Positions 6,339 to 58,176 of a stretch of 64,000 nt of DNA are shown here, piece after piece. The number at the start of each line of letters is the position of its first letter. The first letter of the stretch is position 1. The stretch covers positions 372,001 to 436,000 of the forward strand of contig NC_015388.1 of the NCBI RefSeq assembly GCF_000195295.1. The letters run 5' to 3'. The DNA is from Desulfobacca acetoxidans DSM 11109. GTDB lineage: Bacteria > Desulfobacterota > Desulfobaccia > Desulfobaccales > Desulfobaccaceae. Made by a program: the position numbers and the translations under genes. The notes under the pieces are model-generated. The model was not told the origin of the DNA and searched no databases. It saw nothing but the letters and a program-made list of their open reading frames with translations.

Positions 6339-6389
6339 GGACGGTGGCGCCGGTTTTCGGCAATGATCGAACTGCGCCAGCCTTTGACA

Positions 6390-6413
6390 CCGGATTTCAC
6401 TTCAACAATCCGG
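6390..6413. promoter_or_regulatory. inverted repeat 39 bp before hdrA start
   Basis: CCGGATT and AATCCGG, seven-base arms separated by ten bases, lie just downstream of a TTGACA at 6384-6389. No good -10 box follows at 17 bases. The position suits an operator controlling hdrA-mvhD-metV-metF, but this is inference only. Confidence 0.35.
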
Positions 6414-6451
6414 ATTTACGACAAGAACCTTACAAGTAAGATCGGGTACAG

Positions 6452-9918: not shown

Positions 9919-9964
9919 CACCTGGCTGCAGGCTGACCCAGAAGGAAAAGGAGAGTAAGCAAAC

Positions 9965-10633: not shown

Positions 10634-11547
10634 AGACGGATAGCACACTGGAAAAGATTTTGGCATCGGGAAAGCTGGCTGTTACTTCCGAGTGTGGGCC
10701 GCCTCGTGGGGCCCTGCCGGAGAAAGTGCGCGAAAAGGCTAATCTGCTCAAGGGCTACGTCGACGCCGTCAACGTCACGGACAACCAGACCGCCATGGTT
10801 AGGATGTCCAGCCTTTCCGCCTGTATTCTCTTAAAGCAACTCGGACTCAACCCCATTTTGCAGATGGTCACCCGGGATCGAAACCGTCTGGCAATGCAGA
10901 GCGATATCCTCGGCGCCTACGCCCACGGGATCGATAACATGCTCTGCCTCTCTGGCGATCATACGTCCTTCGGTGATCATCCCATGGCCGCCTGTGTCCA
11001 TGACATCGATTCGATTCAATTGATCAACATGGTCAAGAACATGCGGGATGAAGGGAAGTTTCAGGGCGGCGAGAAGATCGACGGTCCGCCCAAGATGTTC
11101 ATCGGCGCCGCGGCCAACCCTTTCGCCGACCCCTTCGAACTGCGCGTCGCCCGCCTTGCCAAAAAGGTCAAGGCCGGCGTCGAATTTATCCAGACCCAAT
11201 GTATCTTTAATCTGGATAAATTCGAGAAGTGGATGGAAGGCGTCCGTGACCGGGGTCTGGATGAGAAGGTCTATATCCTGGCCGGTATTACCCCGATGAA
11301 ATCGGTCGGCATGGCCAAATACATGAAGAACAAGGTTCCCGGCATGGATGTGCCCGATGATGTCGTCAAGCGCATGGCCGGGGTTCCCAAAGAAAAACAG
11401 GCTGAAGAGGGCATCAAGATCTGCGTCGAAAGCATTCAGCGCCTTAAAGAAGTTAAAGGCGTCAAAGGCTTCCACATCATGGCTATCGAGTGGGAGCAGA
11501 AGGTTCCCGAGATTGTCGAAAAGGCGGGTCTGTTGCCGCGGCCCTAA
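10630..11547 (+). CDS. metF: methylenetetrahydrofolate reductase MetF
   Basis: Interconverts methylene- and methyl-tetrahydrofolate, the last step of the methyl branch of the Wood-Ljungdahl pathway; in an acetate oxidiser it would run in the oxidative direction. The 305-residue protein is a TIM barrel with typical features: SECGPPRG at the N terminus, VNVTDNQ near residue 38, LCLSGDHTSFGDHP near residue 105, FIQTQCIF near residue 190 and YILAGITP near residue 215. It starts inside the metV stop. It is the last gene of the four-gene operon and is followed by a clear terminator. Electron donor or acceptor is probably the HdrA-MvhD complex instead of free NAD(P)H. Confidence 0.95.
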   Translation: MKTDSTLEKILASGKLAVTSECGPPRGALPEKVREKANLLKGYVDAVNVTDNQTAMVRMSSLSACILLKQLGLNPILQMVTRDRNRLAMQSDILGAYAHGIDNMLCLSGDHTSFGDHPMAACVHDIDSIQLINMVKNMRDEGKFQGGEKIDGPPKMFIGAAANPFADPFELRVARLAKKVKAGVEFIQTQCIFNLDKFEKWMEGVRDRGLDEKVYILAGITPMKSVGMAKYMKNKVPGMDVPDDVVKRMAGVPKEKQAEEGIKICVESIQRLKEVKGVKGFHIMAIEWEQKVPEIVEKAGLLPRP

Positions 11548-11586
11548 ATAGTTTCAGGTCTGAGGAAACATACCCTTAATTAATTC

Positions 11587-11631
11587 CCCTCACCTCAAGA
11601 GCGTCGTAAACTGAAGTGAGGGGATTTTTTT
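11587..11631 (+). terminator. rho-independent terminator of hdrA-metF operon
   Basis: CCCCTCACCTCA (11587-11598) pairs with TGAAGTGAGGGG (11612-11623) with one mismatch, followed by a run of seven T (11625-11631). It is 40 bases after the metF stop and 30 bases before the livH stop, so it can separate the convergent transcripts. Confidence 0.88.
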
Positions 11632-11660
11632 ATCTCAGACAGGGCAGGTGATTACGCCGA

Positions 11661-12569
11661 TTAAACCTTTTCAAATGTCGGCCGCCCCAAGATGCCGGTT
11701 GGCTTGAATACCAGGAGAATTAGCAGCATTGAAAAAGCAACGCAGTCGCGGTAGGTGGAGGAAGCCAGTAGCACCGGAGTGAATATTTCTACCGCACCCA
11801 AGAGAAAGCCCCCCAGCATGGCTCCCCGGATATTACCGATGCCGCCGACTACGGCGGAAATGAAGGCCCACCAACCGATGCGAATCCCCATATAGGGATC
11901 AAGCACGGGATATGCCAGACCATAGAGCAGCCCCCCAGCTCCGGCGATAGCTGAACCGATGGCAAACGTCAGGGAGATCACCCGATTCACCGGAACTCCC
12001 ATAAGGGGCGCAACCTGGCAATCATAGGAAATGGCCCGCATGGCCATGCCGGTCATAGTGTGTCGGACCACCCAGTCCAACAGGAGCATGAGCCCGATAG
12101 CCACGATGATGATCAAGATCTGGATATTGGTAAACGATATCCCGGCCCAGGAAAGTTGTTGCACCGGAATAATGGCCGGAATCTGCCGAGGTTCGGGACC
12201 GATGGTGGCCAAGGTGAAGTTTTCCAGGAAAAGCCCTACACCGAGGGCGGTAATGACTGCCGAAACGCGTGGGGCCTGTCTCAAGGGACGATAGGCCAGG
12301 CGTTCGATGGCAACTCCCAAAACAGCCGTCAAGGTCATGGAGAACAGGAGGGCACCAAGAAAGACAAACATCGCCGGGAACGTCAGGTTTAATCCCAATA
12401 GAAAACAGGCGGCCCACATGGCCAGATAGGCGCCCACCATGAAGATATCACCATGGGCGAAATTGATCATGGTGAGGATACCATATACCATAGAGTAGCC
12501 CAAGGCGATCAGGGCGTAAACGCTTCCCAATTGCAGGGCGTTGAGGAGGTATTGGAGTGCTAGAGCCAT
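11661..12569 (-). CDS. livH: branched-chain amino-acid ABC permease LivH
   Basis: Membrane permease of the Liv transporter, 302 residues with about eight hydrophobic spans. It opens with the family hallmark QYLLNALQLGSVYALIALG and continues MVYGILTMINFAHGD near residue 27. It ends with VFKPTGILGRPTFEKV, as in many LivH. It follows livK by 60 bases. Downstream, where livM would normally follow, the transcript meets the convergent metF terminator. Confidence 0.93.
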   Translation of the reverse strand: MALALQYLLNALQLGSVYALIALGYSMVYGILTMINFAHGDIFMVGAYLAMWAACFLLGLNLTFPAMFVFLGALLFSMTLTAVLGVAIERLAYRPLRQAPRVSAVITALGVGLFLENFTLATIGPEPRQIPAIIPVQQLSWAGISFTNIQILIIIVAIGLMLLLDWVVRHTMTGMAMRAISYDCQVAPLMGVPVNRVISLTFAIGSAIAGAGGLLYGLAYPVLDPYMGIRIGWWAFISAVVGGIGNIRGAMLGGFLLGAVEIFTPVLLASSTYRDCVAFSMLLILLVFKPTGILGRPTFEKV

Positions 12570-12629
12570 CCTGCCTAATTACCTAACGCGATGCAACAAG
12601 CGTCTGCCATCTTTCGAGTATGATGGAGA

Positions 12630-13781
12630 TCATGGCTGCACGGTGGCAAAATACTTGAATTGCCCGTCACGAATCTGCAGAATAACGGCGCTCTTGATGG
12701 GATCGCCACTGCCTCTAAAGGTCATCCTGCCGGTGACGCCTTCGTATTCCGTAATCTGTGCTAGGGCATCCCGCACCTTGCCCCGATCAAGCGAACCGGC
12801 TTGAATGATAGCCTGGCAAAGCAGCAGACCGGCGTCATAAGTCAACGCTGCAACGTCGTCAGGTTTTTTCCCGTAGCATGTCTCATATTCACTGATGAAT
12901 TTCTGCGCTCTGGGGGAGGCTAGGTCAGGTGCGTAGTGCGTACTGAAATATGCCCCTTCCAACTCCTGACCACCAAGTTTGAGCAACTCCTGGCTGCCCC
13001 AGGAATCTGAGCCGATGATGTCGCCAATTAGTCCTTGGTTGCGGGCCTGCTTCACCTGGAGAGGTACCTCATTGTAATAGTTGGGCAGAAACAACAATTG
13101 AGGATTAGTCGCCTTAATAGTAGTAAGCTGGGAAGAGAAATCTTTATCGCCCGTAGTGTAGGAAGCGAAGGCAACGACCTTGCCGCCGTCGGCCTCAAAA
13201 AACTTCTTAAAAAATTCAGCAATACCCTTGTTATATTCGCTGGCCACATCATACAGTACCGCCGCGGTGCCGACCCGGAGTTTTTGGCGGGCGAACTTGG
13301 CCATTACCTGTCCTTGAAAATCATCAATGAAGCACGCCCGAAAAATGAACTTTTTGCCTTCGGTAGTCTTGGGATTGGTAGACCAGGGGCTGATCATGAT
13401 GACGCCGTTGTCCTCACAGATGCGGGCGGCGGGGATGGCATTGCCGGAGGCGTTGGGACCGATGATGGCCAAGACATTATTCTGATTGATCAACTTCTGA
13501 GCCGCGGCGGCGGCGGACTCCGCCTTGTCTTCGTTGTCTTCGATAAATAATCGTACCGGAAGGGCTTTATTACCTACCTTGAGGCCGCCCCCCTGATTAA
13601 TCTGGGCCGCCAAATACTCGGCCGCCTTTTTGCAAGAATCACCCACCGTCGGCTTGCTGCCAGTCAGCTCAGCATTTATCCCGAGACGTACTTCCGGCTC
13701 GGTCCTGGTGCTGCAACCGCAACATATTAGACTAAAGACCAACCAAACAAGGCACATAAACGGCCACTTGCCCCTTTGCAT
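12630..13781 (-). CDS. livK: branched-chain amino-acid ABC transporter substrate-binding protein LivK-like
   Basis: Periplasmic binding protein of 383 residues. A hydrophobic signal segment with several cysteines (residues 7-24, ending CCGC) suggests export, possibly as a lipoprotein. The mature part starts VRLGINAELTGSKPTVG, the usual type-I solute-binding fold, and has LAIIGPNASGNAIPAA near residue 110 and DAGLLLCQAI near residue 320. AAGGGG lies before the ATG. As first gene of the minus-strand operon it has a likely promoter at 13895-13924. The true ligand could be any small amino or organic acid. Confidence 0.92.
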   Translation of the reverse strand: MQRGKWPFMCLVWLVFSLICCGCSTRTEPEVRLGINAELTGSKPTVGDSCKKAAEYLAAQINQGGGLKVGNKALPVRLFIEDNEDKAESAAAAAQKLINQNNVLAIIGPNASGNAIPAARICEDNGVIMISPWSTNPKTTEGKKFIFRACFIDDFQGQVMAKFARQKLRVGTAAVLYDVASEYNKGIAEFFKKFFEADGGKVVAFASYTTGDKDFSSQLTTIKATNPQLLFLPNYYNEVPLQVKQARNQGLIGDIIGSDSWGSQELLKLGGQELEGAYFSTHYAPDLASPRAQKFISEYETCYGKKPDDVAALTYDAGLLLCQAIIQAGSLDRGKVRDALAQITEYEGVTGRMTFRGSGDPIKSAVILQIRDGQFKYFATVQP

Positions 13782-44243: not shown

Positions 44244-45308
44244 ATGTTGTTTGGAAGAACTTGGTTAATCTGGTTTTCTTTGATTTGCGCCTGTTGGCTG
44301 AACGTTGGTGGAGTCATCCCGGCTGGCGCCACGGAAGACGAGGTCCGGATAGCTTCGGAATCTGCCAGGGCAGAAGGAGAAACCAGATCTGGGGGGCGTG
44401 GAGAAGGCTTTGAGCCAGAAGGGGGAGCAGCAGCCAAAGAGGAAGGGAGCAAGGAAGAGGCAGCAGGAGATGAATGCCCCGCTACCTTCGGACCCATCAT
44501 CACCGACACCGCCGTTCCCATCGAGAAAGGCAAATTCGCTGTCCAACCTACCTTCGGCCTGAGCTTCATAACTGACAGCTTAACCCAGAGCTGGCGCCGG
44601 GTGTCGGCAGGAGGCGATTTTTCGTCTTTCGCCATGGATTGGAAGTTCACCTATGGTCTGTGGAACAACCTCGAGGCCTTCGTGGTGATTCCCTATGCCC
44701 ACAAATGGGCCAGCAGCGTCAACGAACCGGGTCCCAGTGGGGAACGTGACGCCGACTTCGGGGGCATCGGCGACATCAACCTGACCTTTAAATACTGTTT
44801 GCTGGAGGAGACCCACACCCGCCCGACGTTGACCGCCTTATTCGCCATGGATTTCCCTACCGGCCATTTCAAGCGCCTCAATCCCCGATTTCTCGGTACC
44901 GATGAAATTGGGGGGGGTACTTGTGCCTTCACCACCGGGTTGAACCTGTCCAAGTATATCAAACCCTTGATAGTGTATGGCAACCTCTGGTATACCATGC
45001 GGACTGATTACACCACCGACGATGGCCGGCAAAACCCGCGGGATTTCGTCACCCTCAATCTGGCCGCCGAGTATCCCATCACCGAAAAATGGGTAGCCCT
45101 CATGGAGTTAACCAGCTATTGGGACAGTGGACGTTTGATCGGGCACAAAGCCAATACGCCGCCAGGCGCCTTGCTTTCGGTGATGCCGGGAATTGAATAC
45201 ATGGCTACCGAAAAATTCTCCCTGGCCCTCGGTTTAAACATCGACGCGGTAGGGAAAAACGCCGACGCAGCTATAACCCCGTTGCTTTCCATGGTCTACG
45301 CTTTTTAA
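44244..45308 (+). CDS. outer-membrane beta-barrel protein of the phenol-degradation MetA-like family
   Basis: A 354-residue exported protein. Signal peptide: about residues 1-29 (LIWFSLICACWLNVGGVIPA). Residues 30-75 are low-complexity, Glu/Gly/Ala-rich. The remainder is a series of amphipathic strands (FAVQPTFGLSFITDS, GGIGDINLTFKYCLL, VTLNLAAEYPITEKW) ending in MVYAF with a C-terminal Phe, as in outer-membrane barrels. It matches the putative MetA-pathway transporter family. Ligand unknown; its place before the TonB receptor suggests a role in the same uptake route. Confidence 0.82.
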   Translation: MLFGRTWLIWFSLICACWLNVGGVIPAGATEDEVRIASESARAEGETRSGGRGEGFEPEGGAAAKEEGSKEEAAGDECPATFGPIITDTAVPIEKGKFAVQPTFGLSFITDSLTQSWRRVSAGGDFSSFAMDWKFTYGLWNNLEAFVVIPYAHKWASSVNEPGPSGERDADFGGIGDINLTFKYCLLEETHTRPTLTALFAMDFPTGHFKRLNPRFLGTDEIGGGTCAFTTGLNLSKYIKPLIVYGNLWYTMRTDYTTDDGRQNPRDFVTLNLAAEYPITEKWVALMELTSYWDSGRLIGHKANTPPGALLSVMPGIEYMATEKFSLALGLNIDAVGKNADAAITPLLSMVYAF

Positions 45309-45657
45309 ATACCCGCGAGAATGATGCCGGTTATCAGTTTCCGGCTTCTGTTCCCAGGTTCATTGTTTTGGGATATGGTTTTGTCTCCGAGTTATAGAAG
45401 CTTTTCCTGGGGATCAAGTAAAAAGGGGGGCAATCTTTGGGTCAGTTCTTGGAGTAAATGTTTTTTCTTTCCCTAAAATATTAAGGCTCCAAGAGCGCGA
45501 AGGAGAAACCTGAATAACTAGAAAAAGGAGAAGGAGCGGTACCCCGCCAAGAGTCGCCGCTCCTCCTTACGACCAATCCTTAATGCGAAAAGATCGGCTC
45601 TTTTTTTTGTACCATAAACAGGGCCGACACGCAAGCCGAAATGAAAGGAGAGAGCGA

Positions 45658-47985
45658 ATGTGGCATCGGCTCTGGTTAACCGGAGTCATGGCATTCCTAT
45701 TTTTGATCTCGGGAATACTGTCCCAAACCCAGGCTCAAGAATCCGAGGGAGTGATAAAAGTCATAGAACCGGAAGAAACCCAAGAGGTGGAAACTTCGAC
45801 TCCTGCTACAGCTAAAAAGGATAAAGTGGAAGACGTAGAGAAGATTGTGGTAACGGCCACCAAAACAGCGCGCAACCCCGATGACGTGCCGGCCAGTATC
45901 ACGGTGATTACCAAGGAAGATATTAGAAAACAGAACATCCAGACGGTGGACGAGGCCTTGGCTCAGATCCCCGGGACTTTTCAAAAACGTAGCAAAGGCT
46001 GGACGGATGCCCACTCTGCGAGTGTAAATCTCCGGGGTTTTCCAGCCGAAAGCCAGAAACGCACCCTGATCTTGCTGGATGGCCAGAATATCTCCAGCGG
46101 TTACTCCAATTCCGTGTCCTGGAACAGCATGCCGGTGGAGTATATTGAGCGGATTGAAGTGATCCGGGGTCCCTTCTCCGCCCTTTACGGCGGCAGTGCC
46201 ATGGGCGGGGTCATCAATATCATTACCAGGACTCCCAAAAAACTGGAGTTCCTGGCCCAGGGCGGCTACAGCACCTATGATTCCTGGACCTACTATCTCG
46301 GCGCGGGAGACCGCCTTTGGGATAAGCTGAGCATCCAAGGGGGCTTCAACTATCGCTACACTGCGGGTTATGCCAGCAATCTGGTGCGAAAGACGGCCAG
46401 CAGTGGGGCAGCCAGCCCCACCGTCTTAGGATGGAGTCCCACCACGACGACCACCGGCTCCCCCACGAACATTATCGGGGATAACGGCGATAATTACTGG
46501 AGTGATTACAACTTAAACGGCAAGGCCAGCTGGGATATCGCTGAGGGCCATAAGGTAACCTTCAACACTCTGGTGAGCTATTCCAACACCGGCTATGACC
46601 TGTTCAATTCCTACCTCACCAATACGGCCACCGGCGCCAAAGTAGTTACCGGTACGGTGGGTCTGTTCGGCACAGATACGAAATTCAGCAACCTCCAAGA
46701 GGGGGCTTTCTTAAGCAGCAATGTGCGAAACCGCACGCAAGTCTTTAATCTTGCTTCCGAACACAGCCTCACCGAGACCACCAAACTCAAATTTCATGCC
46801 GGTCTGCTAAACATGCCGGAAAGCTGGGGCGTCACTCCCAATTCTTCTAGCCCCCAAACTACCTATTATGGCGGCCCGGGGAGCAAGGTCAGCTTTCCCA
46901 GCCAGAACTGGGTGGCAGAGTTGCAGGTGGATCAGGCCATCGGCAACAAACATCAGTTAGTGGGCGGCATTTCGTACAACACCGGAAGCGCCAGCAGTGA
47001 GACAAACAACCTGGACAATTGGCGGAAACCGGACATGGAGGGCATTTTGACCAAAATGTCGGGGGGGCGGGACCGGAATACCGGTATATTCCTCCAGGAC
47101 GAAATCGCCTGGCATCCCAAGATCAATACTGTCGCGGGGCTGCGTCTGGATTGGTGGGAAACCTATGGCGGGAGATACATGGCAGCAGCCGGCACTCCCG
47201 TGATCGACCTGGGTAGCCGGAGCAAGGTGGCAGTCAGCCCCAAGTTTGCGGTTCTATATCGCCCCTGGCAGTGGATGGCCTGGCGGGCCTCGGTGGGCAC
47301 CTCCTTCCGGGCCCCCAACATCTATGAATTATACGGCGCCCACCAATCCGCCACCTATGTGTACAAGAACAATCCTGATCTCAAGCCCGAGACCACTCTC
47401 TCCTGGGAGATCGGCACCACCTTGAAACCGTTTGAGGGTACGGTCTTTACTAGCACCTATTTCGAGAATTATGTGGATGACCTGATTTACCGGGTTACCG
47501 ACCCCACCGACCCAACCGGCAGGACCCAGATCATCGAGAATGCCGCCAAAGCCACTATCAGAGGGGTGGAACTGGAGATTAACCAAAAAATCTGCTCCTG
47601 GCTGGAGGTGTTCGGCAATACCACCCTGGTGGACGCCCGGATCAATGAGAACCCGTATAATCAGGCCTCGGTGGGCAAGAAGATCACCATGACACCCCGG
47701 CAGATGTTCAATTTTGGGGTCACAGCGAATTACTGGAAGTTCCAGGCCAATCTTTCGGGTCGCTATGTTAGCAAACTTTATGCTACGGACAACAACAGCG
47801 ACGTCGTTAATAATGTCTACGGCTCTTACGATCCCTACTTCACCCTGGACTCCAAGGTGATCTTCTCCCCGGTGAAGTATATGGACGTCTCCTTTTCCGT
47901 GAATAATATGCTCAACCGGGAATACTATTCCTATTATCGCACCCCTGGGCAGACGTTTTGGACCCAGGTAACCTTGAAATATTAA
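45658..47985 (+). CDS. TonB-dependent outer-membrane receptor, possibly for heme or another tetrapyrrole
   Basis: A 775-residue receptor. Signal peptide: residues 1-26 (AFLFLISGILSQTQAQ at its end). A TonB-box-like KIVVTATKT sits near residue 65, then the plug domain with ITVITKEDIRKQNIQTVDEA, LILLDGQNISSGY and IRGPFSALYGGSAMGGVINI. The barrel has the SFRAPNIYELYG box near residue 550 and NNPDLKPETTLSWEIG, with a His (GAHQ) between them. Heme receptors carry a FRAP-His-NPNL arrangement, so heme is plausible, but similar boxes occur in other receptors. It ends in FWTQVTLKY. The ATG at 45658 follows AAAGGAGAG. It heads the gene set that ends with tonB. Confidence 0.92.
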   Translation: MWHRLWLTGVMAFLFLISGILSQTQAQESEGVIKVIEPEETQEVETSTPATAKKDKVEDVEKIVVTATKTARNPDDVPASITVITKEDIRKQNIQTVDEALAQIPGTFQKRSKGWTDAHSASVNLRGFPAESQKRTLILLDGQNISSGYSNSVSWNSMPVEYIERIEVIRGPFSALYGGSAMGGVINIITRTPKKLEFLAQGGYSTYDSWTYYLGAGDRLWDKLSIQGGFNYRYTAGYASNLVRKTASSGAASPTVLGWSPTTTTTGSPTNIIGDNGDNYWSDYNLNGKASWDIAEGHKVTFNTLVSYSNTGYDLFNSYLTNTATGAKVVTGTVGLFGTDTKFSNLQEGAFLSSNVRNRTQVFNLASEHSLTETTKLKFHAGLLNMPESWGVTPNSSSPQTTYYGGPGSKVSFPSQNWVAELQVDQAIGNKHQLVGGISYNTGSASSETNNLDNWRKPDMEGILTKMSGGRDRNTGIFLQDEIAWHPKINTVAGLRLDWWETYGGRYMAAAGTPVIDLGSRSKVAVSPKFAVLYRPWQWMAWRASVGTSFRAPNIYELYGAHQSATYVYKNNPDLKPETTLSWEIGTTLKPFEGTVFTSTYFENYVDDLIYRVTDPTDPTGRTQIIENAAKATIRGVELEINQKICSWLEVFGNTTLVDARINENPYNQASVGKKITMTPRQMFNFGVTANYWKFQANLSGRYVSKLYATDNNSDVVNNVYGSYDPYFTLDSKVIFSPVKYMDVSFSVNNMLNREYYSYYRTPGQTFWTQVTLKY

Positions 47986-48074
47986 GGAAGACTTCGGACA
48001 ACTGCTGGAATTCATTTATAAACTTCCTTTTCTAGCATTCTAACGGCAGTAAGGTATCTCAACGACTCGAGAAT

Positions 48075-48106
48075 ATGAGATGCTTCGCTGCGCTCAGGAT
48101 GACACT
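48075..48106 (+). repeat. short dispersed-repeat-like sequence
   Basis: GCTTCGCTGCGCTCAGGATG lies within a 32-base stretch that, from memory, is a common intergenic sequence in many bacterial genomes (TTCGCT-CGCTCAG-ATGAC). It contains no gene start and lies between the receptor gene and the next one. Only one copy is in the window. Confidence 0.4.
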
Positions 48107-48208
48107 TCAGGCGAAAGTGAGGTTAAAAAATGGCTTTCATCCGGAACAATCTTCGAAACTACTGGGGGTCGGCAAACCCTAAAATTCGACAGAGCGAAGG
48201 ATCAAGAG

Positions 48209-48973
48209 ATGGATTTAAACATCATTTTGTGGATGGGCGGGATGCTCTTCAGCCTGAGCATTTTTGTGGTGAAGGTAGGCTTTGGCCTGGCTTTGGGCAG
48301 GATAAGATGGAAGGCAATAGTTTTGACCCTGTTATTGTATATGGGGATTTTTATCCTGGCCGCGCTTCTTTCCGGCAGCTTAATCAAAATCCTGGAGCCG
48401 GTGGTGAGAAAAGGACCCTATCTCCATGCCGCCATGGCCTTGGGGATGATTGCCTGGGGTATCTATGTCATACGCCATTTAACGGGTCAGAATTCGGCGC
48501 TCGATGGTCAATCCATCCACCACGGCGCCAAAGGCGAATATTCACCCCAAGTTACGCAGCACTCGGTATGGTTTCTTCTCGTCCCCTGCCCCGTCTGCCT
48601 CACGGCTATCACCTTTTCCACCTGGGCAGCCTTAAATGTTATTAAACTACCCCCTTGGCTGGTGGGATTTGGGTTGGGAGCAGTATTTACCATTCTCTCG
48701 CTCCTGACCTATTTTTTTGTAAGGCTTTTTACTCTGAATTCAACCTTCTTAAATAAAGGGATTAGTCTCGGCTTCAGCATGATAGTGATCGGTCTTTATT
48801 TCCTGACTTCACTATTTCTTCCAGCCCATATTGAGGGGGCCAAGAATATCTACCAATCTTTTGCTACCGAAGGTGGTAATATTGCTCTGAGCGACCACCT
48901 CGGGGTATTTCTGCTCCTATTGGGGGCAATATTGGTTAGTTTCTTTACTTATAATAGAAGTGAGGTTGGTTGA
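48209..48973 (+). CDS. DUF2162-like polytopic membrane protein with a CPVC motif
   Basis: A 254-residue membrane protein with six or seven spans. It opens MDLNIILWMGGMLFSLSIFV. A conserved-looking PCPVC (Cys127 and Cys130) lies at the start of a membrane span, and charged loops lie at residues 90-120. It fits the DUF2162 predicted transporter family, which I recall in archaeal and hmu-type clusters next to MotA-like and CobN-like genes. The CxxC inside the membrane could carry metal or thiol electrons. The start ATG at 48209 follows AAGGATCAAGAG; the earlier open frame to 48080 crosses a repeat and is unlikely. It overlaps the next gene by one base. Confidence 0.8.
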   Translation: MDLNIILWMGGMLFSLSIFVVKVGFGLALGRIRWKAIVLTLLLYMGIFILAALLSGSLIKILEPVVRKGPYLHAAMALGMIAWGIYVIRHLTGQNSALDGQSIHHGAKGEYSPQVTQHSVWFLLVPCPVCLTAITFSTWAALNVIKLPPWLVGFGLGAVFTILSLLTYFFVRLFTLNSTFLNKGISLGFSMIVIGLYFLTSLFLPAHIEGAKNIYQSFATEGGNIALSDHLGVFLLLLGAILVSFFTYNRSEVG

Positions 48974-49578
48974 TGAACATCATGGCTGGTCTGGAAACAT
49001 TTCTCTATGTCATATCTTCGGCCTTGTTTTATCCGGTGGTAGTGGGTCTTATCCTCCTTACCTTCTGGATCGTGATTTCCTTCGGCAGCTTCTTGCGGGA
49101 ATATCTGGACCGCAGGCAGGGCGGGTCGAGGAGCTTGCAGCAGTATCGCAGAATGCTTGATCCCCAATTGATAACCCGGTCAGCGAATCTTGATCTGGAG
49201 CTGGAGAAGCGGCTCCAGGAGGCTGAACTGGAGCTGATTAAAGGCCTGGATAAGATCAGGTTTGCCATCCGGGTGGGCCCGGCCGTGGGCTTGATGGGAA
49301 CTTTGATCCCCATGGGCATCTCCCTGGCGGCCCTGGCCCAGGGAGATATGCCGAAAATGGCGGGGAGCATGGTTACCGCTTTTACCGCCACGGTGGTGGG
49401 TCTGGCCTGCGGCGTGGCCGCCTATCTGATGTCCCTGGTGCGGGAAAAATGGGTTCGGGCAGACATGCGCGAGATGGAATATCTGACGGAAATGCGCCTC
49501 AGGAAGGGAAAAGGCCCGAGGACGGAGGACAAGGGGGAGGGGGATAATGAGCCTCTTAAAAAGACAGCGACGGTTTGA
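48973..49578 (+). CDS. MotA/TolQ/ExbB-like proton-channel protein of the CobN-linked set
   Basis: A 201-residue protein with three membrane spans: residues 12-36, about 100-120 and about 135-158. The last two hold the MotA/ExbB core, RVGPAVGLMGTLIPMGISLA and TAFTATVVGLACGVAAYLM. It starts inside the stop of the preceding gene (TGATG) and overlaps the next gene by 32 bases, so translation is coupled. It differs from the ExbB encoded at 54139, so the locus has two such motors. Its likely partner is the DUF2149 protein. It corresponds to the MotA-type member of the hmu-like set. Confidence 0.9.
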   Translation: MNIMAGLETFLYVISSALFYPVVVGLILLTFWIVISFGSFLREYLDRRQGGSRSLQQYRRMLDPQLITRSANLDLELEKRLQEAELELIKGLDKIRFAIRVGPAVGLMGTLIPMGISLAALAQGDMPKMAGSMVTAFTATVVGLACGVAAYLMSLVREKWVRADMREMEYLTEMRLRKGKGPRTEDKGEGDNEPLKKTATV

Positions 49579-49885
49579 CAGATACGACGAACCCCTGGAA
49601 GACCCCATTTCCGGCGTGGCCAACCTCTTTGACGCCAGCGTGGCCTTTATCGTCAGCATGATGATCGCCCTGTTCATGGCGTATAACATGCTGGATATGA
49701 TGAATCCCAAGTCAGAAATGACCATCACCAAAAAGAACGCCGACGGCCAGATGGAGATCATCACCAAAAGCGGCAAGGAAATCAAGGTTAAAAAGGTGAC
49801 GGATAAGAAGTTGAGCGGCGAAGGCGTCCGTCTGGGAACGGCCTATCAGCTCAAAGACGGGAGAGTGGTGTATGTGCCGGAATGA
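49547..49885 (+). CDS. DUF2149 protein, ExbD-like architecture
   Basis: A 112-residue protein with one membrane span, residues 28-50 (NLFDASVAFIVSMMIALFMA), and an Asp (D29) at its start, followed by a small hydrophilic domain that ends GTAYQLKDGRVVYVPE. This layout, a short cytoplasmic tail, a membrane helix with Asp and an outside domain, is that of ExbD/MotB-type proteins. It lies between the MotA-like and the CobN-like genes and overlaps both (32 and 14 bases), so the three are made together. Assignment to DUF2149 is from memory of the NLFD-SVAF pattern. Confidence 0.82.
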   Translation: MSLLKRQRRFDRYDEPLEDPISGVANLFDASVAFIVSMMIALFMAYNMLDMMNPKSEMTITKKNADGQMEIITKSGKEIKVKKVTDKKLSGEGVRLGTAYQLKDGRVVYVPE

Positions 49886-52800
49886 AAAGGCTGTAGAGGG
49901 CAGAAATCCTGGGCTACACACCAAAGTAATCTTTTTTCTGGGATGTATGCTGGGTTGGCTGTTCTGTTCCTCGGGACCGGCTTATGCCGCTAAGCAAAAA
50001 GTCACCCTGCTGCTTACCGATGCGCCGACCAAGACCAGCATTGAAGCGGTGAAGGCCATCTATCTAGACTATCCCAATTTAAAGCAACAGGTGGAATTTC
50101 ATATCTATCCCAGCCTCCGGACCGGCACCCGGAAAAACGACCTGACCCCTGTGAGCGAGTCGAAATTAATATTCATCATGCTCAAAGGTGCCGACCTGGT
50201 CAAGGCAGTAAAACCCGAGCTGGAAATGGCGATTAAAAAGGGGGCCAAGGTCTATTGTGTAAGCGGTTCTTATTATGACGAACACGAGGAGATGGGCATC
50301 AAGGTCGATAAGCAAATGCTGAATTACTTTAGCGAAGGCGGCCTGGAAAATATGAAGAACATGATTCTTTATGCCCTCAAGAAGGACTGCTCATTTAATG
50401 TTTCCTTTAATCCGCCGATAGAATATCCCCACCTGGGCATCTATGACTCCAAAACCAGGAAGATTTTCAGGGACTTTGAGGAATATAAAAAGGCTTATAC
50501 CGCGTATCGAGCCGGCAATCCCTGGATAGGGGTACATTTTTCTAAATATAACATTGGCTCAGGAGAGAACAAGCACCTTGACGCCGTCATCCGCAACCTG
50601 GAAGGCGCGGGTTTCAATGTCTTGCCGGTTTACGGGTCGCTGGCAGAGGCCGTAGAAAAATTCTTCTGCCGGGAGATCGATTCCGTTAACGGCCCTGACT
50701 CCGGAAAGGAAGGAGGTCAGGGTAACGACCGCAGCCGGGTGCGGCTGGTTATTGCCCTCGGGATAAAGCACGGCTGGGGGGTAAAGCCTGAAGCCACGAT
50801 CCCGCTTTTGAGCCGGCTCAATGTCCCCGTGGTCAATGCCATATCACTTCTGGGCCAATCAAGGAAGGAGTGGGAAAAGTCTCCCGCGGGCCTGGATATT
50901 TTTTCCAGATCCTTCCAGATAGCCACTCCGGAGATAGTTGGGATGATTCAGCCGACGATTATCGCCTCCAAGGAGAGAAGGATAGATAAAGCTACGGGGT
51001 TCGAGTATATCGAGGAAGAACCGATACCGGATCGGATAGAACGGCTTACCGCCCGAGTGAAGGCCTGGGTTAATCTTCAGGATAAACCCAATAAGGATAA
51101 GAAGATTGCCCTGGTCTATTACAACTATCCGCCGGGTAAACAGAACATCGGGGCCTCCTACCTCAATGTGCTGCCCGAGAGTCTATGGGAAATACTCCTC
51201 CGGCTTAAGTCGGAAGGCTATGATCTCGGGGGGCCGGGTTCAGGAAAGCAGGAGAAAGAGCTTCGCAAGGAGGAACTTTTTCAGGAAATCCAAGATTATG
51301 GCCGGAATATCAGCAACTGGGCCCCGGCAGAGATCGATAAACTGGTGAAGGCGGGGGGGAAAACGGTCTTTCCCGGAAAACCCCAGGAGGGTAGTAGCCG
51401 GGGACCGGTGCTGATTCCCTTGGCGATTTATAAAAAATGGTTCGCCCAGTTGCCCGAAAGCCTGCAAAATTCCATGATAAAAAGCTGGGGTCCGGTGGAG
51501 CAGAGCAACATTATGATTTGGAAGGATACGGACGGTAAGCAATATCTGGTCATACCTGCGGTGCGATACGGCAACCTCCTGTTCACCCCCCAACCGGCCC
51601 GTGGCTGGGAACAGGATATTAAAAAAGTTTTTCATGACGTCACTATCCCTCCTCATCATCAATATGTCGCCTTTTATCTCTGGCTGAAACACGGCTTTCA
51701 GGCCGATGCCGTAGCCCACATCGGCACACACGGCACCCATGAGTGGCTGCCGGGAAAAGAAGTAGGGTTCACCCGAGAAGACCCGCCGGAGCTTTTGATC
51801 CAGGACCTGCCCAATATCTATCCCTACATCGTCGATAATGTGGGGGAAGGACTCCAGGCCAAGCGCCGGGGCATGGCGGTAATCATCGACTATATGACCC
51901 CGCCTTTTGATAAAGCCGGGTTGAATAAAGAGCTGAAGGAACTTGCCAGCCTTTTCAGCGATTACGGGGTTGCCAAGGAAAAGAGCCCCCCCTTGGCTGG
52001 TACCAAGCTCAAAGAGATTAACGAACTGGCCAAAAAGATGGGGTTGCTCACCGACCTCAAGCTGACGGAGATCAAGACCGAGGACGAGATAGAAGAGGTG
52101 GAACATTACCTTAAAGATATTGCGGAAAAACAGACCCCCATGGGGTTGCATACCTTAGGAAAATCACCGGAGGAGAGATATCGCAAAAGTACAGCGGAGG
52201 CGATTCTTTCCATTGAGAAAGGGTTAACCGAAGAGGAAAGAAAAAAGAAGCTGGCAGACTTGGAGGACCGGATAAACCGCTCCGGCCCCAGTGAGATGGA
52301 TGCCTTTACCGCGGCCCTCTCGGGCCAATACATCCCGGCCGCCCAGGGGAACGACCCGATCAGAAATCCCGATTCGTTGCCCACGGGGAAAAATTTTTAT
52401 TCTTTTGACCCCACCCGGCTTCCTTCGCCAAAGATATATGAGATGGGGGCCAAACTAGCTCGGGAGTTGATCGATGGCTACCAGGCCAGACACGGACAAT
52501 ACCCGGACAAACTCTCCTTTGTCCTCTGGGCTACGGAAACCATCCGGCATGAAGGGGTGATGGAGTCCCAGATTATGTATCTCCTGGGGATTAAGCCCAA
52601 GTGGGATGAGCGGGGCCGGGTTGTCGGGGTGGAAGCCATACCCAGAAAGGAGCTGGGCCGGCCCCGGATCGATGTCACCATGGCGCCGTCCGGGCTTTAC
52701 CGGGACGTTTTCCCCAATCTCATGGACCTGCTTGATCAAGCAGTGACTTTGGCCAAACAGCAAGATGAAGCTGACAACCTGCTCCGGGACAATATCAGGC

Positions 52801-54071
52801 GCACCCGGCAGATGCTCCTGGAGAAAGGCGTTGCCCTGGAGCTGGCAGAAAGGCTGGCCGCAGTGAGGCTCTTCACCACCCCTCCCGGCGCTTACGGGAC
52901 CAATCTGGATAAGGCCATTGTCCAATCCAACTCCTGGGACAAGGACGAACAACTGGCGGACATCTATCTTAGACAGATGAGCCATGTATATGGGCAAGGG
53001 TTTTGGGGGGACAAAATTGAGAACCTGGATAAGAATACCCGGAAGGCCGAGGATATCAGCCTGACCCTGTTTAAATCCGCCCTGTCCGGTACCAAGATGG
53101 CGGTGCACAGCCGGTCCAGCAACCTGATTTGCACCCTGGACAGCGATGATTTCTACGGAGAGCTCGGCGGCATGGCCATGACTATTCGAGCCCTTGATGG
53201 CAAGACCCCGGAGACCTATGTCACCAACATGTCCAATCCGGTGAGTCCCAAACAGGAGACCCTGGAAAAAGTGATGGGCACGGAGATGCGGTCACGATAC
53301 CTCAATCCCAAATGGATCAAGGCGATGATGAAAGAGGGCTATGCCGGGGCCCGGTTCGTCGATAAGGTCATCGAGAATCTCTGGGGCTGGCAGGTGACGG
53401 TGCCCGAGGCGGTGGACGCGGCCAAATGGAATGAGATGTATGAGACCTATGTCCTGGATAAAAACGGCCTGGATATCAAAAAGATGTTCAAGGACGCCCA
53501 GAATATGTGGGCCTATCAATCCCTGGTGGCCCGGATGCTGGAGACGGTGCGGAAGGGATACTGGCAGCCGGATCAGAAGGTCATTGATACCCTGTCCAAG
53601 GAGTATGCCGAGAGCGCCAAAGAAGTGGGCATGGCCTGTTGCGAACACACCTGCAATAATCCTATGCTGTCCGACTTCACCTCCGCAGTGCTGATGTCCG
53701 TGCCCGGGATGGAAACCAAGGCAAAAGAATTTAAGCAGGCCCTGGATGCGGTAAAAAATATCCAGCAGCCTTCAAAGGCCTTGAACTCGCAGGCTTCTCC
53801 GAATGTTACCAGTCCGTCCGCAGATTCCCAGGCTAAGGGTGCTCAAAAGTCTCCGGATGATAAGACTCCGCCGGCAGATTCCCAGGCGAAGCCTTCTCAA
53901 GCCTCTCCTGACGCCAAGAGTCAAAAAGTTGAGGGACTCGAAGTGGAAGAGGTGAACCGAGGCGGGTTTTCAGCTACCCCCATCCCCTATCTGTTCATTG
54001 CGGGTTTCATAGTCTTCCTGTTGCTCATCAGGGCAGGCTGGAGAAAGAAGGGCGACCTGAGAAGAAGATAA
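49872..54071 (+). CDS. exported, membrane-anchored CobN-like chelatase (HmuS-type candidate)
   Basis: A 1399-residue protein of the CobN/ChlH family, which inserts or removes metal in tetrapyrroles. An N-terminal signal (VIFFLGCMLGWLFCSSGPAY, ending AYAA at about residue 40) and a C-terminal membrane helix (about 1367-1388, with IAGFIVFLLLIRAGW) place it outside the cytoplasm, anchored to the inner membrane. The family core is clear: IGTHGTHEWLPGKEVGF near residue 615, a TPPGAYGTNLDKAI stretch near residue 1005, and ACCEHTCNNP near residue 1255. A Ser/Pro/Lys linker with repeated DSQAK units (about 1300-1355) precedes the anchor. Normal CobN works in the cytoplasm with ATPases; none are encoded here. 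Heme dechelation is the best guess; other tetrapyrroles or metals remain possible. Confidence 0.9.
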   Translation: MCRNEKAVEGRNPGLHTKVIFFLGCMLGWLFCSSGPAYAAKQKVTLLLTDAPTKTSIEAVKAIYLDYPNLKQQVEFHIYPSLRTGTRKNDLTPVSESKLIFIMLKGADLVKAVKPELEMAIKKGAKVYCVSGSYYDEHEEMGIKVDKQMLNYFSEGGLENMKNMILYALKKDCSFNVSFNPPIEYPHLGIYDSKTRKIFRDFEEYKKAYTAYRAGNPWIGVHFSKYNIGSGENKHLDAVIRNLEGAGFNVLPVYGSLAEAVEKFFCREIDSVNGPDSGKEGGQGNDRSRVRLVIALGIKHGWGVKPEATIPLLSRLNVPVVNAISLLGQSRKEWEKSPAGLDIFSRSFQIATPEIVGMIQPTIIASKERRIDKATGFEYIEEEPIPDRIERLTARVKAWVNLQDKPNKDKKIALVYYNYPPGKQNIGASYLNVLPESLWEILLRLKSEGYDLGGPGSGKQEKELRKEELFQEIQDYGRNISNWAPAEIDKLVKAGGKTVFPGKPQEGSSRGPVLIPLAIYKKWFAQLPESLQNSMIKSWGPVEQSNIMIWKDTDGKQYLVIPAVRYGNLLFTPQPARGWEQDIKKVFHDVTIPPHHQYVAFYLWLKHGFQADAVAHIGTHGTHEWLPGKEVGFTREDPPELLIQDLPNIYPYIVDNVGEGLQAKRRGMAVIIDYMTPPFDKAGLNKELKELASLFSDYGVAKEKSPPLAGTKLKEINELAKKMGLLTDLKLTEIKTEDEIEEVEHYLKDIAEKQTPMGLHTLGKSPEERYRKSTAEAILSIEKGLTEEERKKKLADLEDRINRSGPSEMDAFTAALSGQYIPAAQGNDPIRNPDSLPTGKNFYSFDPTRLPSPKIYEMGAKLARELIDGYQARHGQYPDKLSFVLWATETIRHEGVMESQIMYLLGIKPKWDERGRVVGVEAIPRKELGRPRIDVTMAPSGLYRDVFPNLMDLLDQAVTLAKQQDEADNLLRDNIRRTRQMLLEKGVALELAERLAAVRLFTTPPGAYGTNLDKAIVQSNSWDKDEQLADIYLRQMSHVYGQGFWGDKIENLDKNTRKAEDISLTLFKSALSGTKMAVHSRSSNLICTLDSDDFYGELGGMAMTIRALDGKTPETYVTNMSNPVSPKQETLEKVMGTEMRSRYLNPKWIKAMMKEGYAGARFVDKVIENLWGWQVTVPEAVDAAKWNEMYETYVLDKNGLDIKKMFKDAQNMWAYQSLVARMLETVRKGYWQPDQKVIDTLSKEYAESAKEVGMACCEHTCNNPMLSDFTSAVLMSVPGMETKAKEFKQALDAVKNIQQPSKALNSQASPNVTSPSADSQAKGAQKSPDDKTPPADSQAKPSQASPDAKSQKVEGLEVEEVNRGGFSATPIPYLFIAGFIVFLLLIRAGWRKKGDLRRR

Positions 54072-54138
54072 CCAATAATGTTCGGGTGGCTCCAGAAAGA
54101 TCATGACTTCGCGGCATTTTCATTGTTAGGAGATCAAG

Positions 54139-54834
54139 ATGGATTTAACGAAAAGCATGCTTAACCTGACGGTCGGCGGCAGCACCGGCGTGCTATGGCT
54201 GCTGTTAGGGTTAAGTGTCGTTTCGTTGGCGATCGCCATCGACAAGGCTTTGACCTTTTATCGTTACCGCTTCAACCTGGACCGGTTTGTGGCCGAGATT
54301 GAACCATTCCTGCAGCAAGGAGACTGGCCACAAATCATTTCCCGGTGTGAGCAGGAATCCGGTCTGGAAGCCCGGATGCTGTTAGCCGCCCTCCGGGAAA
54401 TTTCCCGGAGCAAGGAGAAAGTCCAACATATCATGGAAGGGGAGCGGCTGCGGGTGGAACTTTATCTAGGGAAGAGACTAGGTTTTCTGGGAACCTTGGG
54501 AGCCAATGCACCCTTCATCGGTCTGTTCGGCACTGTCTTAGGGATCATCCACGCCTTCAAAGACTTAGCCCTGGCCGAAGGCGGCGGCGGCCCGGCGGTT
54601 ATGGCGGGCATCGCCGAGGCCCTGGTCGCCACCGCCGTAGGTCTCCTGGTGGCCATCCCGGCGGTGGTGTTATACAACTTCTTTCATCGCCGCCTCCAAG
54701 TGGTGCAGGAGCGCTCCCGGATTCTGGAGCAGCTTCTCCTGGCCCGCCTGGACGAAGAAGCCGGAACCGCCGGGATTTCCATTCCGGATACGGAATATTT
54801 CAAGTCCTTCCGAAAAGCCGGGAGATTGGTATGA
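54139..54834 (+). CDS. exbB: ExbB/TolQ-family proton channel
   Basis: A 231-residue inner-membrane protein with three spans: about 18-38, 116-140 and 158-180. The core [20 protein letters not shown] and [20 protein letters not shown] are classic ExbB/TolQ. With ExbD (start overlapping its stop by four bases) and TonB, it supplies energy from the proton gradient to outer-membrane receptors. GTTAGGAGATC-type ribosome site precedes the ATG. It is 67 bases after the CobN-like gene, so it is likely in the same operon. Confidence 0.94.
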
Positions 54835-55226
54835 AAGCCGATATGCGCGGCCCCCTCACCGAAATAAATATGACCCCCTTTGTGGATATTGTTCTGGTCA
54901 TCCTCATCATCTTTCTCCTGACGGCCACGGTGATGATGCCCCGCACCTTTGCCATCGCTCTGCCCAAGGCCACCCAGGCCGACAGGCTGGAGGGCGTTCC
55001 CATTATTATCAGCATCGACCGGGAGGGCAGTATTGCCATCAATGGAGTCAAGCTGGCGCAGGATGGCGACTTTGAGAAGGTCTTTACGGCCCAAAAACAG
55101 GGGAAAGAACCTCAGGCCATTATCGCCGCAGATACCGACAACCGCCATGGTCGGCTCATAGAGGTGATCGACCGTCTACGCGGTCTGAAGGTGGAACGCA
55201 TCGGCATCGAGGTGGAGCAGAAGTAG
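54831..55226 (+). CDS. exbD: ExbD/TolR-family protein
   Basis: A 131-residue partner of ExbB with one membrane span ([20 protein letters not shown], residues 17-36) that carries the proton-relay Asp (D19) after the EINMTPFVD family motif. The periplasmic domain shows [18 protein letters not shown]. The ATGA overlap with exbB couples their translation. Confidence 0.95.
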
Positions 55227-55229
55227 ATT

Positions 55230-56069
55230 ATGGAATGTCATTATCAGGAATGGATAAGCACCTGGAAAACCAAGGATAACTGGACCTGGGCAATTCTAGG
55301 CTCTCTATTGGTGCACGGCCTGCTCGTTGCCGGGATGCTGACGTCTTTTATGAGCCACCCTGCCAAAAAGTGCGTGGTGGTGCCGGTGGAAGCCATTGCC
55401 CTGGTGCCGGGGCCCAAGGGGGGCGGCGGCGGCCGGCCGGCGGCCGCCACCCGGCCCGAGGCGGTTCCTCCGAAGCCCTCACCGGTATGTCCCCCGGCCA
55501 GGCCTCAGGTCAAGCCTAAAACGGTGCTCAAAACCAGACTGGCTCCACCGCCACCGGAACCCACCATGGCGCCGGTGATCCCTACCCCGGCATCGCCTCC
55601 TGCCATAACCAGGGGCAAATCATCGCCTGCCACCGTCGCCGCCTGCCAGGCTGGCAGTTCCGGCGCCGCCGTTGGCAGCTCGGTATCTGGCCAGGGAGGC
55701 CGAGGAACCGGGGCCGGCGGCGGAGTTGGACCTGGCCGTGGACGAGGCTCCGGACCCGGTTCCGGACCCGGTTCCGCCCTCCAGGGCTATCTGCGGGAAA
55801 TCCGGCGGCTCCTGGAGAAACAAAAAGAATATCCCCTGATGGCCCGCCGCCGCAATATCCAGGGGATGGTAGTGGTAATGTTTACTATCGCCTCTGGCGG
55901 CCAGGTCGATGCATCACAGGTGAGCCGCTCCTCGGGTCATGACCTCTTGGACGAAGCCGCCCGGAACACCGTCCGCCGGGTCGGACGGTTCCCCCCCATC
56001 CCCGTCGACCTGAAGCGCCAGAAGTTGACCGTTGCGGTCCCCCTGGCATTTTGTTTGAACAACGAATAG
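55230..56069 (+). CDS. tonB: TonB-family energy transducer
   Basis: A 279-residue protein. Residues 17-40 are a membrane anchor (TWAILGSLLVHGLLVAGMLT, including the helix His typical of TonB). Residues 55-185 are a Pro-rich and then Gly/Ser-rich linker spanning the periplasm, with GPGRGRGSGPGSGPGSALQG near the end. The C-terminal domain (about 188-279) has YPLMARRRNIQGMVVVMFTI and LDEAARNTVRRVGRFPPIP. It starts three bases after exbD. It should contact the TonB receptor encoded at 45658. Confidence 0.94.
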   Translation: MECHYQEWISTWKTKDNWTWAILGSLLVHGLLVAGMLTSFMSHPAKKCVVVPVEAIALVPGPKGGGGGRPAAATRPEAVPPKPSPVCPPARPQVKPKTVLKTRLAPPPPEPTMAPVIPTPASPPAITRGKSSPATVAACQAGSSGAAVGSSVSGQGGRGTGAGGGVGPGRGRGSGPGSGPGSALQGYLREIRRLLEKQKEYPLMARRRNIQGMVVVMFTIASGGQVDASQVSRSSGHDLLDEAARNTVRRVGRFPPIPVDLKRQKLTVAVPLAFCLNNE

Positions 56070-57304
<1,235 letters not shown>

Positions 57305-57355
57305 TCAAAAGGAAAATGTCCTGGGAAAACATGCTGTCATGATACTCTTACCATT

Positions 57356-57391
57356 CCCTCTCACTCTTGGGAAGAGGATTAGGGCGAAGGG
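57356..57391. repeat. stem-loop intergenic element, nifH-nifI1 spacer
   Basis: CCCTCTCACTCTTGGGAAGA, then GGATTAGGGCGAAGGG. The arms pair (CCCTCT...AGAGG-type) and the tail AGGGCGAAGGG is the degenerate form of the AGGGTGAGG tail seen in the other spacers. Located 51 bases after the nifH stop. Confidence 0.6.
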
Positions 57392-57442
57392 CAATGTAGC
57401 CCTTTATTTTGGCAAAGACCGACACAATTTGGAGAAAGTATA

Positions 57443-57799
57443 ATGATTATGATTAGATCAGTCGTACGGCCCGAAAAAGTGGATGCCGTCCTGGCCGCCT
57501 TAATGGAAGCCGGGTTCCCTGCGGTAACCAAAATGTCAGTAGTGGGTCGGGGTAAGCAGCGGGGACTGAAGATCGGAGAGGTCACTTATGACGAAATCCC
57601 CAAGGAACTGCTGTTGACAGTGGTAAAGGATCAGGACAAGGATTTTGTCATCAAGACCGTCCTCAAGGCCGCCCGCACCGGCGACAAAGGCGCCTACGGC
57701 GACGGCAAAATCTTCGTCTCTCCGGTAGAAGAGGTATACACCATCAGCTCGGGCATCAAGGAATCCGCTTCCGGGGAAATCGAAGAGGTACAGCCATGA
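57443..57799 (+). CDS. nifI1: nitrogen regulatory PII-like protein NifI1
   Basis: A 118-residue PII-family protein that, with NifI2, switches nitrogenase off when ammonium is present. It begins MIRSVVRPEKVDAVLAALME, has the T-loop MSVVGRGKQRGLKIGEVTYD near residue 33, and GAYGDGKIFVSPVEEVYTI near residue 84. GGAGAAAG precedes it. Its place between nifH and nifD is diagnostic of the nifI1/nifI2 type found in methanogens and strict anaerobes. It overlaps nifI2 by four bases. Confidence 0.96.
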   Translation: MIMIRSVVRPEKVDAVLAALMEAGFPAVTKMSVVGRGKQRGLKIGEVTYDEIPKELLLTVVKDQDKDFVIKTVLKAARTGDKGAYGDGKIFVSPVEEVYTISSGIKESASGEIEEVQP

Positions 57800-58176
57800 A
57801 AGAGATCATGGCCATAGTACGCATCAATATGATGAACCAGACCAAAAAGGCCCTGGCCGAGGCCGGCATCTCTTCCATCACCGCCCGGGACGCCCTCGGA
57901 CGGGGTAAAGGCCTGGTTGATTTAACCCTGCTGGAAGGCGCCGAAAAGGGCTATGAAGAAGCCGTGGTCCAACTGGGACAGACTCAGCGTCTGGTCCCCA
58001 AGAGGGTCTTCTTCGTGGTCGTGCCGGACCGGCTGGTGCAGAAAACCGTGAACACGATCATTAAGGTAAATCGATCCGGCAAATCCGGGGATGGCAAGAT
58101 ATTTGTCATGCCGGTCCGGGATGCTGTCCGGGTGCGTACCGGCGAGTCCGGCGACCAGGTTTTGGATGAAGTCTGA
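57796..58176 (+). CDS. nifI2: nitrogen regulatory PII-like protein NifI2
   Basis: A 126-residue PII-family partner of NifI1. It has EIMAIVRINMMNQTKKALAE at the start, ITARDALGRGKG in the T-loop region, and the PII C-terminal NRSGKSGDGKIFVMPVRDAV. The ATGA overlap with nifI1 couples their synthesis. The complex is known to bind the MoFe protein and respond to 2-oxoglutarate and ATP in methanogens; the same is inferred here. Confidence 0.96.
   Translation: MKEIMAIVRINMMNQTKKALAEAGISSITARDALGRGKGLVDLTLLEGAEKGYEEAVVQLGQTQRLVPKRVFFVVVPDRLVQKTVNTIIKVNRSGKSGDGKIFVMPVRDAVRVRTGESGDQVLDEV

Follow-up and report, generated by a model that had tools for sequence, protein, structure and literature searches.

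How might a relative of the cobalt and magnesium chelatases work in the periplasm, where ATP is absent, and which metal would it handle there? These questions are raised by an operon of Desulfobacca acetoxidans DSM 11109, which lies within a stretch of 64,000 nt (NC_015388.1, 372,001-436,000, forward strand) that we refer to as the window, and to whose positions coordinates refer unless another source is given. The operon encodes a CobN-like protein beside a MotA/ExbB-like protein and members of the DUF2149 and DUF2162 families, and the original prediction was that these make up a proton-driven periplasmic machine that acts on heme or another tetrapyrrole. Our analyses kept most of that architecture and moved the probable substrate from heme to cobalt or corrinoids. 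Taken as a whole, the operon has about an even chance of being a metal/tetrapyrrole acquisition system of the BtuS family, of cobalt/corrinoid type, in which receptor import, metal removal, a MotA-DUF2149 drive and a DUF2162 step would be combined. HmuS was the first biological dechelatase to be shown directly, and those who described it noted that most clusters of the chelatase superfamily defy annotation; the present work draws on independent signs to assign one large chelatase clade a substrate class that can be tested (cobalt/corrinoid), and the proposal also covers how a chelatase relative could act where there is no ATP.

The unit proved to be larger than the four genes with which the original prediction was concerned. 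Those genes (DUF2162, MotA/ExbB-like, DUF2149 and the 1399-aa CobN-like gene) were all confirmed by Pfam profile searches and are indeed tightly packed, overlapping by 1 to 32 bases or abutting (Table 1), and they have a TonB-dependent receptor gene 5' and an ExbB-ExbD-TonB set 3'. The resulting order on the + strand, TonB-dependent receptor, DUF2162, MotA-like, DUF2149, CobN-like, ExbB, ExbD, TonB (45658-56069), is by its gene content that of a complete eight-gene envelope operon. Since the ExbB-ExbD-TonB set is separate from the MotA-DUF2149 pair, that pair is not required to energise the receptor. The window receptor is 68% identical to the receptor of a riboswitch-controlled paralogous operon in the same genome, and it falls below the NCBIfam cut-offs for the heme and the B12 receptor models alike. 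The window ExbB is 63% identical to its counterpart in a further operon of this genome (L135, C1:684000-700000), where a riboswitch is followed by a TonB-dependent receptor, a BtuF-CbiZ protein, a second BtuF-like protein and ExbB-ExbD-TonB.

Judged from its sequence, the CobN-like protein is exported and membrane-anchored, as first proposed. A hydropathy scan, rather than a dedicated signal-peptide predictor, is the basis of this call, and it found an N-terminal signal-like segment (hydrophobic at residues 19-37, then AYA-AK) and a C-terminal transmembrane (TM) segment at residues 1365-1391; the N-terminal hydrophobic segment recurs in 32 of 33 aligned members of the clade and the C-terminal one in all 33, and cytoplasmic-type CobNs, that of the same genome included, have neither. 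By its PF02514 homology, these two segments and the adjacent genes for a TonB receptor, a MotA-like protein and DUF2149, the window protein is assigned to the BtuS family of exported CobN-like proteins, as a variant whose clade is tied to B12 control; its TM segments, and the absence of an AAA+ ATPase gene from the operon, set it apart from cytoplasmic CobN/ChlH. The best match in the PDB is HmuS (9d26, E 2.6e-146), which dechelates heme; its catalytic His538 belongs to the superfamily motif HFG(T/A)HG, and its family is marked by His1209/Glu1212 and by Met79/His254 (PMC12583661). The catalytic histidine is retained, as His620, and is invariant in the clade alignment. The family marks of HmuS are absent: in place of the LSLDHxxEFMGG motif with His1209 and Glu1212, the window protein has LDSDDFYGELGG, a CobN-like DSDD-type segment; of the two heme axial ligands, Met79 has Lys105 in its column, and at the His254 column, near which the alignment is uncertain, the clade has no conserved His. 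A CCxHxC motif (CCEHTC in the window protein) is near-invariant in the B12 clade and kept only in part in HmuS, and is a possible exit site for metal.

In trees built by quick searches with Shimodaira-Hasegawa-like approximate likelihood ratio (SH-aLRT) support, the window protein nests in a Desulfobacterota/Nitrospirota clade (support 97-100), many of whose members come from draft metagenome assemblies with possibly wrong organism labels. It did not group with cytoplasmic cobalt or magnesium chelatases, and it stands apart from the ChlI/ChlD-linked CobN of its own genome. A clade joining it with HmuS was rejected by an approximately unbiased (AU) test (p 4e-54); in a smaller tree, where long branches were flagged, HmuS joined cytoplasmic CobN. 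The D. acetoxidans genome (3.28 Mb, one contig) encodes three PF02514 proteins, namely that of the window, a paralogue and a cytoplasmic-type CobN (L006), which adjoins BtuF/BtuC/BtuD-like and ChlI/ChlD-like genes. The paralogue, at C1:2.48 Mb, has an identical receptor-DUF2162-MotA-DUF2149-CobN order and closes a B12-synthesis cluster that begins with CbiM and CbiK, several of the gene names there having been assigned by sequence inspection.

The regulation and gene neighbourhoods of this clade point to cobalt or corrinoids. A cobalamin riboswitch lies directly upstream of the receptor gene at fourteen loci (L007, L020, L021, L026, L032, L033, L083, L103, L106, L107, L108, L110, L112 and, on a plasmid of Trichlorobacter lovleyi, L124), directly upstream of CobN instead at L109, and farther upstream at L015, L016, L019 and L080; the gap between riboswitch and gene is mostly under ~300 bases, and at L020 the called open reading frame (ORF) overlaps the riboswitch. 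In the in-genome paralogue (L007) the receptor gene is preceded by one riboswitch and the DUF2162 gene by another. Since the genome-wide count is 12 cobalamin riboswitches in 3.28 Mb, the linkage between riboswitch and operon is far from chance. None was found at L025, L090 or L115, nor at the Bacteroides/Prevotella hmu loci (L119/L120) or the Runella, Diaphorobacter and Pseudoalteromonas loci. Corrinoid genes are also close by: in seven loci the CobN-like gene adjoins a gene in which a BtuF-like domain is fused to the corrinoid amidohydrolase CbiZ, and the N-termini of these fusions look signal-like on inspection. CbiK is found 3' of the CobN-like gene at L010 (by Pfam) and at L024, L102 and L105 (by sequence), and CbiQ/CbiO-like genes, again by sequence, upstream of L032. 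Because of the riboswitches, the CbiZ fusions, CbiK and the B12-synthesis neighbours, the substrate is very probably cobalt or a corrinoid rather than heme. In a draft genome, a single open frame of 774 aa (L083:8179-10503) takes in DUF2149, a BtuF-like domain and CbiZ; this may be either a real fusion of motor partner and corrinoid enzyme or the result of a lost stop or sequencing error. Beside the CobN-like/ExbB genes of the closest relatives there are also genes for a MacB-like exporter (Pfam, L010 7125-9317) and an HlyD-type adaptor (Pfam, L024 4546-8129), which might export the metal-free ring.

The window itself gave no match to RF00174, either at the gathering threshold or at E<=5, nor any other Rfam element, and yet it holds the remains of a riboswitch leader. 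Window 45405-45691 matches L026 5715-5997 (71% identity, 292 bp, E 3e-32), a stretch that in L026 sits between the riboswitch (5466-5653) and the receptor gene. The terminator hairpin of this leader, at -21.2 kcal/mol in L026 and at -22.5 in the paralogue (L007), has dwindled to -3.3 in the window. Where the aptamer would lie there is now the 3' end of another, unrelated gene; that gene (44244-45308) is for an outer-membrane-type protein of the Phenol_MetA_deg family, which has no relative among the fetched loci. This leader stump and its decayed terminator are the marks of descent from a riboswitch-controlled operon that has lost its aptamer, and with the riboswitch lost, the window copy should be freed from repression by B12. 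As for other control, NikR_C is without a match in the genome, no convincing inverted repeats were found upstream of the operon, and promoter matches there were no more than expected by chance. A general decay of the window copy was considered and rejected, as Lys105 alone departs from the 140 columns that the rest of the clade keeps invariant and the end branch of the protein is ordinary; the protein does not appear to be decaying, and its function may have shifted. The decapitated riboswitch is a clear case of a duplicated vitamin-uptake operon evading its regulator.

Where the energy would come from had been answered with the proton gradient, and a proton-driven motor, by analogy with known stators, still seems the most economical source for a periplasmic chelatase relative, the MotA-like/DUF2149 pair being of the families that partner HmuS in hmu operons; the coupling itself we infer. 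The MotA-like protein carries a GTLIPMG motif whose Thr is present in 47/47 sequences. DUF2149 has one TM helix, which opens with an acidic residue (NLFD, Asp29), and a small periplasmic domain, and the acidic residue is kept throughout (Asp in 50 of 51 sequences, Glu in the remaining one). ExbD, TolR and MotB have an acidic residue in the same place of their TM helix. The DUF2149 model, of low confidence (predicted local distance difference test score, pLDDT, 57), is a single long helix (20-52), hhalign gave a probability of only 13% for a match to ExbD, and a PDB sequence search had no match; the idea of DUF2149 as a proven ExbD homologue was dropped on these grounds, and the likeness is used as an analogy.

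DUF2162 has a P-C-P-x-C motif (PCPVC in the window) that is invariant in 33/33 sequences, and is predicted to be a metal permease or a thiol electron conduit. Its AlphaFold2 model (pLDDT 71) had no clear fold match (best Foldseek E 0.34), and since VIA Z values of up to 9.2 to MFS-type proteins are in a range uninformative for helical bundles, no fold is claimed. Control matches placed both DUF2149 and DUF2162 in Methanosarcina acetivorans as well. What fills the slot of DUF2162 differs by locus: DUF2162 itself in the B12 clade, a NicO/UreH-like protein in Runella and, in hmu operons, a polytopic protein that belongs to no Pfam family. Such variation would suit an inner-membrane partner that is specific to the metal whose ion is freed in the periplasm. 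In Runella slithyformis (L121, pRUNSL01 5284-13318), genes for a TonB-dependent receptor, the NicO/UreH-like protein, MotA, DUF2149 and the CobN-like protein stand between hypABF and hypCDE, in a nickel-hydrogenase cluster, and the operon is probably a nickel version of the system. A plasmid of Azospirillum brasilense (L127, 4593-16551) carries CobN-MotA-DUF2149 with a cobalamin riboswitch, an ABC transporter, a TonB receptor and NikR; with NikR and the riboswitch both close by, it was rejected as a clean nickel case.

How these parts might act together is suggested by HmuS, which strips iron from heme and whose His538 is kept here as His620. With the ExbB-ExbD-TonB of the same operon as its energy source, the TonB receptor would bring a corrinoid or other cobalt chelate into the periplasm, where the anchored CobN-like protein would bind the ring and most likely extract the metal. 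MotA-DUF2149 would pass protons and drive the conformational cycle of the CobN-like protein, standing in for the AAA+ ATPases of CobN/ChlH, and DUF2162 would import the freed metal ion or, by way of its CPxC cysteines, feed in reducing equivalents. Metal removal, as against insertion or import of the intact ring, has about even odds in our view; it is favoured by the relatedness to HmuS and by the nickel operon of Runella. The full proposal is that a periplasmic machine driven by the proton-motive force removes cobalt from corrinoids of the B12 type or other cobalt tetrapyrroles and that DUF2162 imports the freed metal. The system would then be for cobalt what HmuS is for iron, and the family would have moved between metals (Fe, Co, probably Ni) through exchange of its membrane partner. 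This proposal is tentative, and rather more likely to fail than to hold. If true, it would bring to light a route by which anaerobes salvage cobalt or corrinoids and provide a simple rule by which the metal is read from the partner protein.

Several points weigh against this proposal. To our knowledge, no enzyme is known to remove cobalt from a corrin, and CbiZ fits the salvage of intact rings as well as it does cobalt stripping. Riboswitch, CbiZ and CbiK are all absent beside the window operon, whose receptor gets a slightly better score from the heme than from the B12 receptor model, with the two scores under the cut-offs. Lys105 and Gly1096 deviate at positions conserved in the clade, so the window copy's own substrate may have shifted, and the low hhalign probability of DUF2149 against ExbD belongs here too.

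The alternative that survives best, although unlikely, makes the operon a proton-driven importer of intact corrinoids, with the CobN-like protein as a tethered receptor, MotA-DUF2149-DUF2162 in place of BtuCD, and the metal staying in the ring. It would fit the genome's other TonB-dependent receptor/BtuF-CbiZ operon, with its second BtuF-like protein and ExbB-ExbD-TonB, relatives that instead pair BtuF-CbiZ with the present module, and the assumption that HmuTUV moves heme in Porphyromonas gingivalis (PMC13227078); it is opposed by the invariance of the chelatase His620, by DUF2162 being small for a corrinoid path, and by the DUF2162 slot of Runella, where an ion-permease relative sits in a nickel cluster. 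We consider it rather doubtful that the cobalt source is instead a metalloporphyrin or a chelate other than a corrinoid, with CbiK receiving the metal to make B12 de novo, as the CbiK genes directly 3' in close relatives, the CbiQ/CbiO-like genes upstream of L032 and the Runella nickel analogue might suggest, since BtuF-CbiZ fusions in eight loci indicate a corrinoid. The substrate first proposed, heme, from which a periplasmic HmuS-like dechelatase would take iron in this anaerobe, now looks improbable. HmuS is the best PDB match, MotA and DUF2149 are partners common to hmu operons, and the window copy has no riboswitch and a receptor marginally closer to the heme type, but the HmuS-specific ligands are missing, the AU test rejects the grouping, there is no HmuY, the polytopic partner is DUF2162 rather than the hmu-type protein, and the protein's kin are under B12-riboswitch control beside corrinoid genes. 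That the protein inserts cobalt into scavenged metal-free corrinoids, as cytoplasmic CobN does, is very improbable, for although it has a CobN-like DSDD motif where HmuS has His and such a role has been speculated for green sulphur bacteria with exogenous corrinoids (PMC8620254), the operon has no CobS/CobT- or ChlI/D-type ATPase, none could work in the periplasm, and metal-free corrinoids would be required outside the cell.

Table 1. Features of the operon and its leader, in window positions
Feature	Position	Strand	Remarks
Leader stump (part of cobalamin-riboswitch leader downstream of aptamer)	45405..45657	+	Aptamer gone; terminator stem ~45430-45471 decayed
TonB-dependent outer-membrane receptor	45658..47985	+	Pfam TonB_dep_Rec and Plug; ORF open from 45583, start 45658 inferred
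DUF2162 polytopic membrane protein	48209..48973	+	PF09930 E 1.8e-63
MotA/TolQ/ExbB-like proton-channel subunit	48973..49578	+	PF01618 E 3.6e-13; TTG at 48970 is a mechanical ORF start only, gene start taken as 48973
DUF2149, predicted ExbD-like stator partner	49547..49885	+	PF09919 E 5.3e-32
Exported, C-terminally anchored CobN-like (BtuS-family) protein, predicted tetrapyrrole metal processing	49872..54071	+	CobN-Mg_chel PF02514, 1075 bits
Codon Lys105	50184..50186	+	HmuS Met79 column; Met in all 32 other clade members
HIGTHG motif	51717..51734	+	His620 aligns with catalytic HmuS His538
LDSDDFYGELGG	53136..53171	+	Asp1093 at HmuS His1209 position, Gly1096 at HmuS Glu1212 position
CCEHTC, residues 1256-1261	53637..53654	+	Candidate metal-binding motif just before C-terminal TM segment
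ExbB	54139..54834	+	PF01618 E 5e-32
ExbD	54831..55226	+	PF02472 E 8.7e-25
TonB	55230..56069	+	PF03544 E 1.2e-18

A nitrogenase cluster starts right after the operon, with NifH (Pfam, 416 bits) and two small PII-like genes (by sequence), from window 56474-58176 onward.

The original prediction held the system to be undescribed in Desulfobacterota, a claim that has to be withdrawn. Wagner 2012 noted the cluster on plasmid pSZ77 of T. (Geobacter) lovleyi as having CobN without CobS/CobT, in a role unknown to those authors (PMC3403914), and PMC6460266 cites Rodionov 2003 for the BtuS family, a third kind of CobN-related protein, proposed for metalloporphyrin salvage. Among open-access papers, we found none on a clade under riboswitch control that has MotA, DUF2149, DUF2162 and CbiZ fusions. 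The pSZ77 cluster has the same eight-gene order as the window, from TonB-dependent receptor to TonB, but differs in its two tandem riboswitches and in having cobyric acid synthase and CobT as neighbours. BtuS1/BtuS2 of Bacteroides fragilis, as PMC6460266 presents them, are like the window protein in being exported, periplasm-facing, membrane-anchored CobN-like proteins of an uptake operon, whereas the clade of the window protein is linked with DUF2162, with corrinoid enzymes and with cobalamin riboswitches. With the cytoplasmic class I chelatases CobN/ChlH the window protein shares PF02514 homology, the HxGTHG motif and a DSDD-like active-site segment, but they are not exported, lack a TM anchor and have AAA+ ATPase partners. 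MotA-DUF2149 resembles the ExbB-ExbD, TolQ-TolR and MotA-MotB stators in combining a MotA/ExbB-family subunit with a one-TM partner that has a TM-proximal acidic residue, and departs from ExbB-ExbD in that DUF2149 is not detectably homologous to ExbD, has no TonB of its own and has the CobN-like protein as its genetic partner. A further related system is hmuYRSTUV of Bacteroides thetaiotaomicron (9d26, PMC12583661), whose HmuS is the demonstrated iron form of the BtuS family, and P. gingivalis HmuS has the topology of the window protein, supported by localisation in E. coli (PMC13227078). HmuS and the window protein have in common their CobN homology, export, a TM segment at both ends, the His538 equivalent and the MotA and DUF2149 partners; the window system has neither His1209/Glu1212, Met79/His254 nor HmuY, has DUF2162 where hmu operons have their own polytopic protein, and belongs to a clade of its own.

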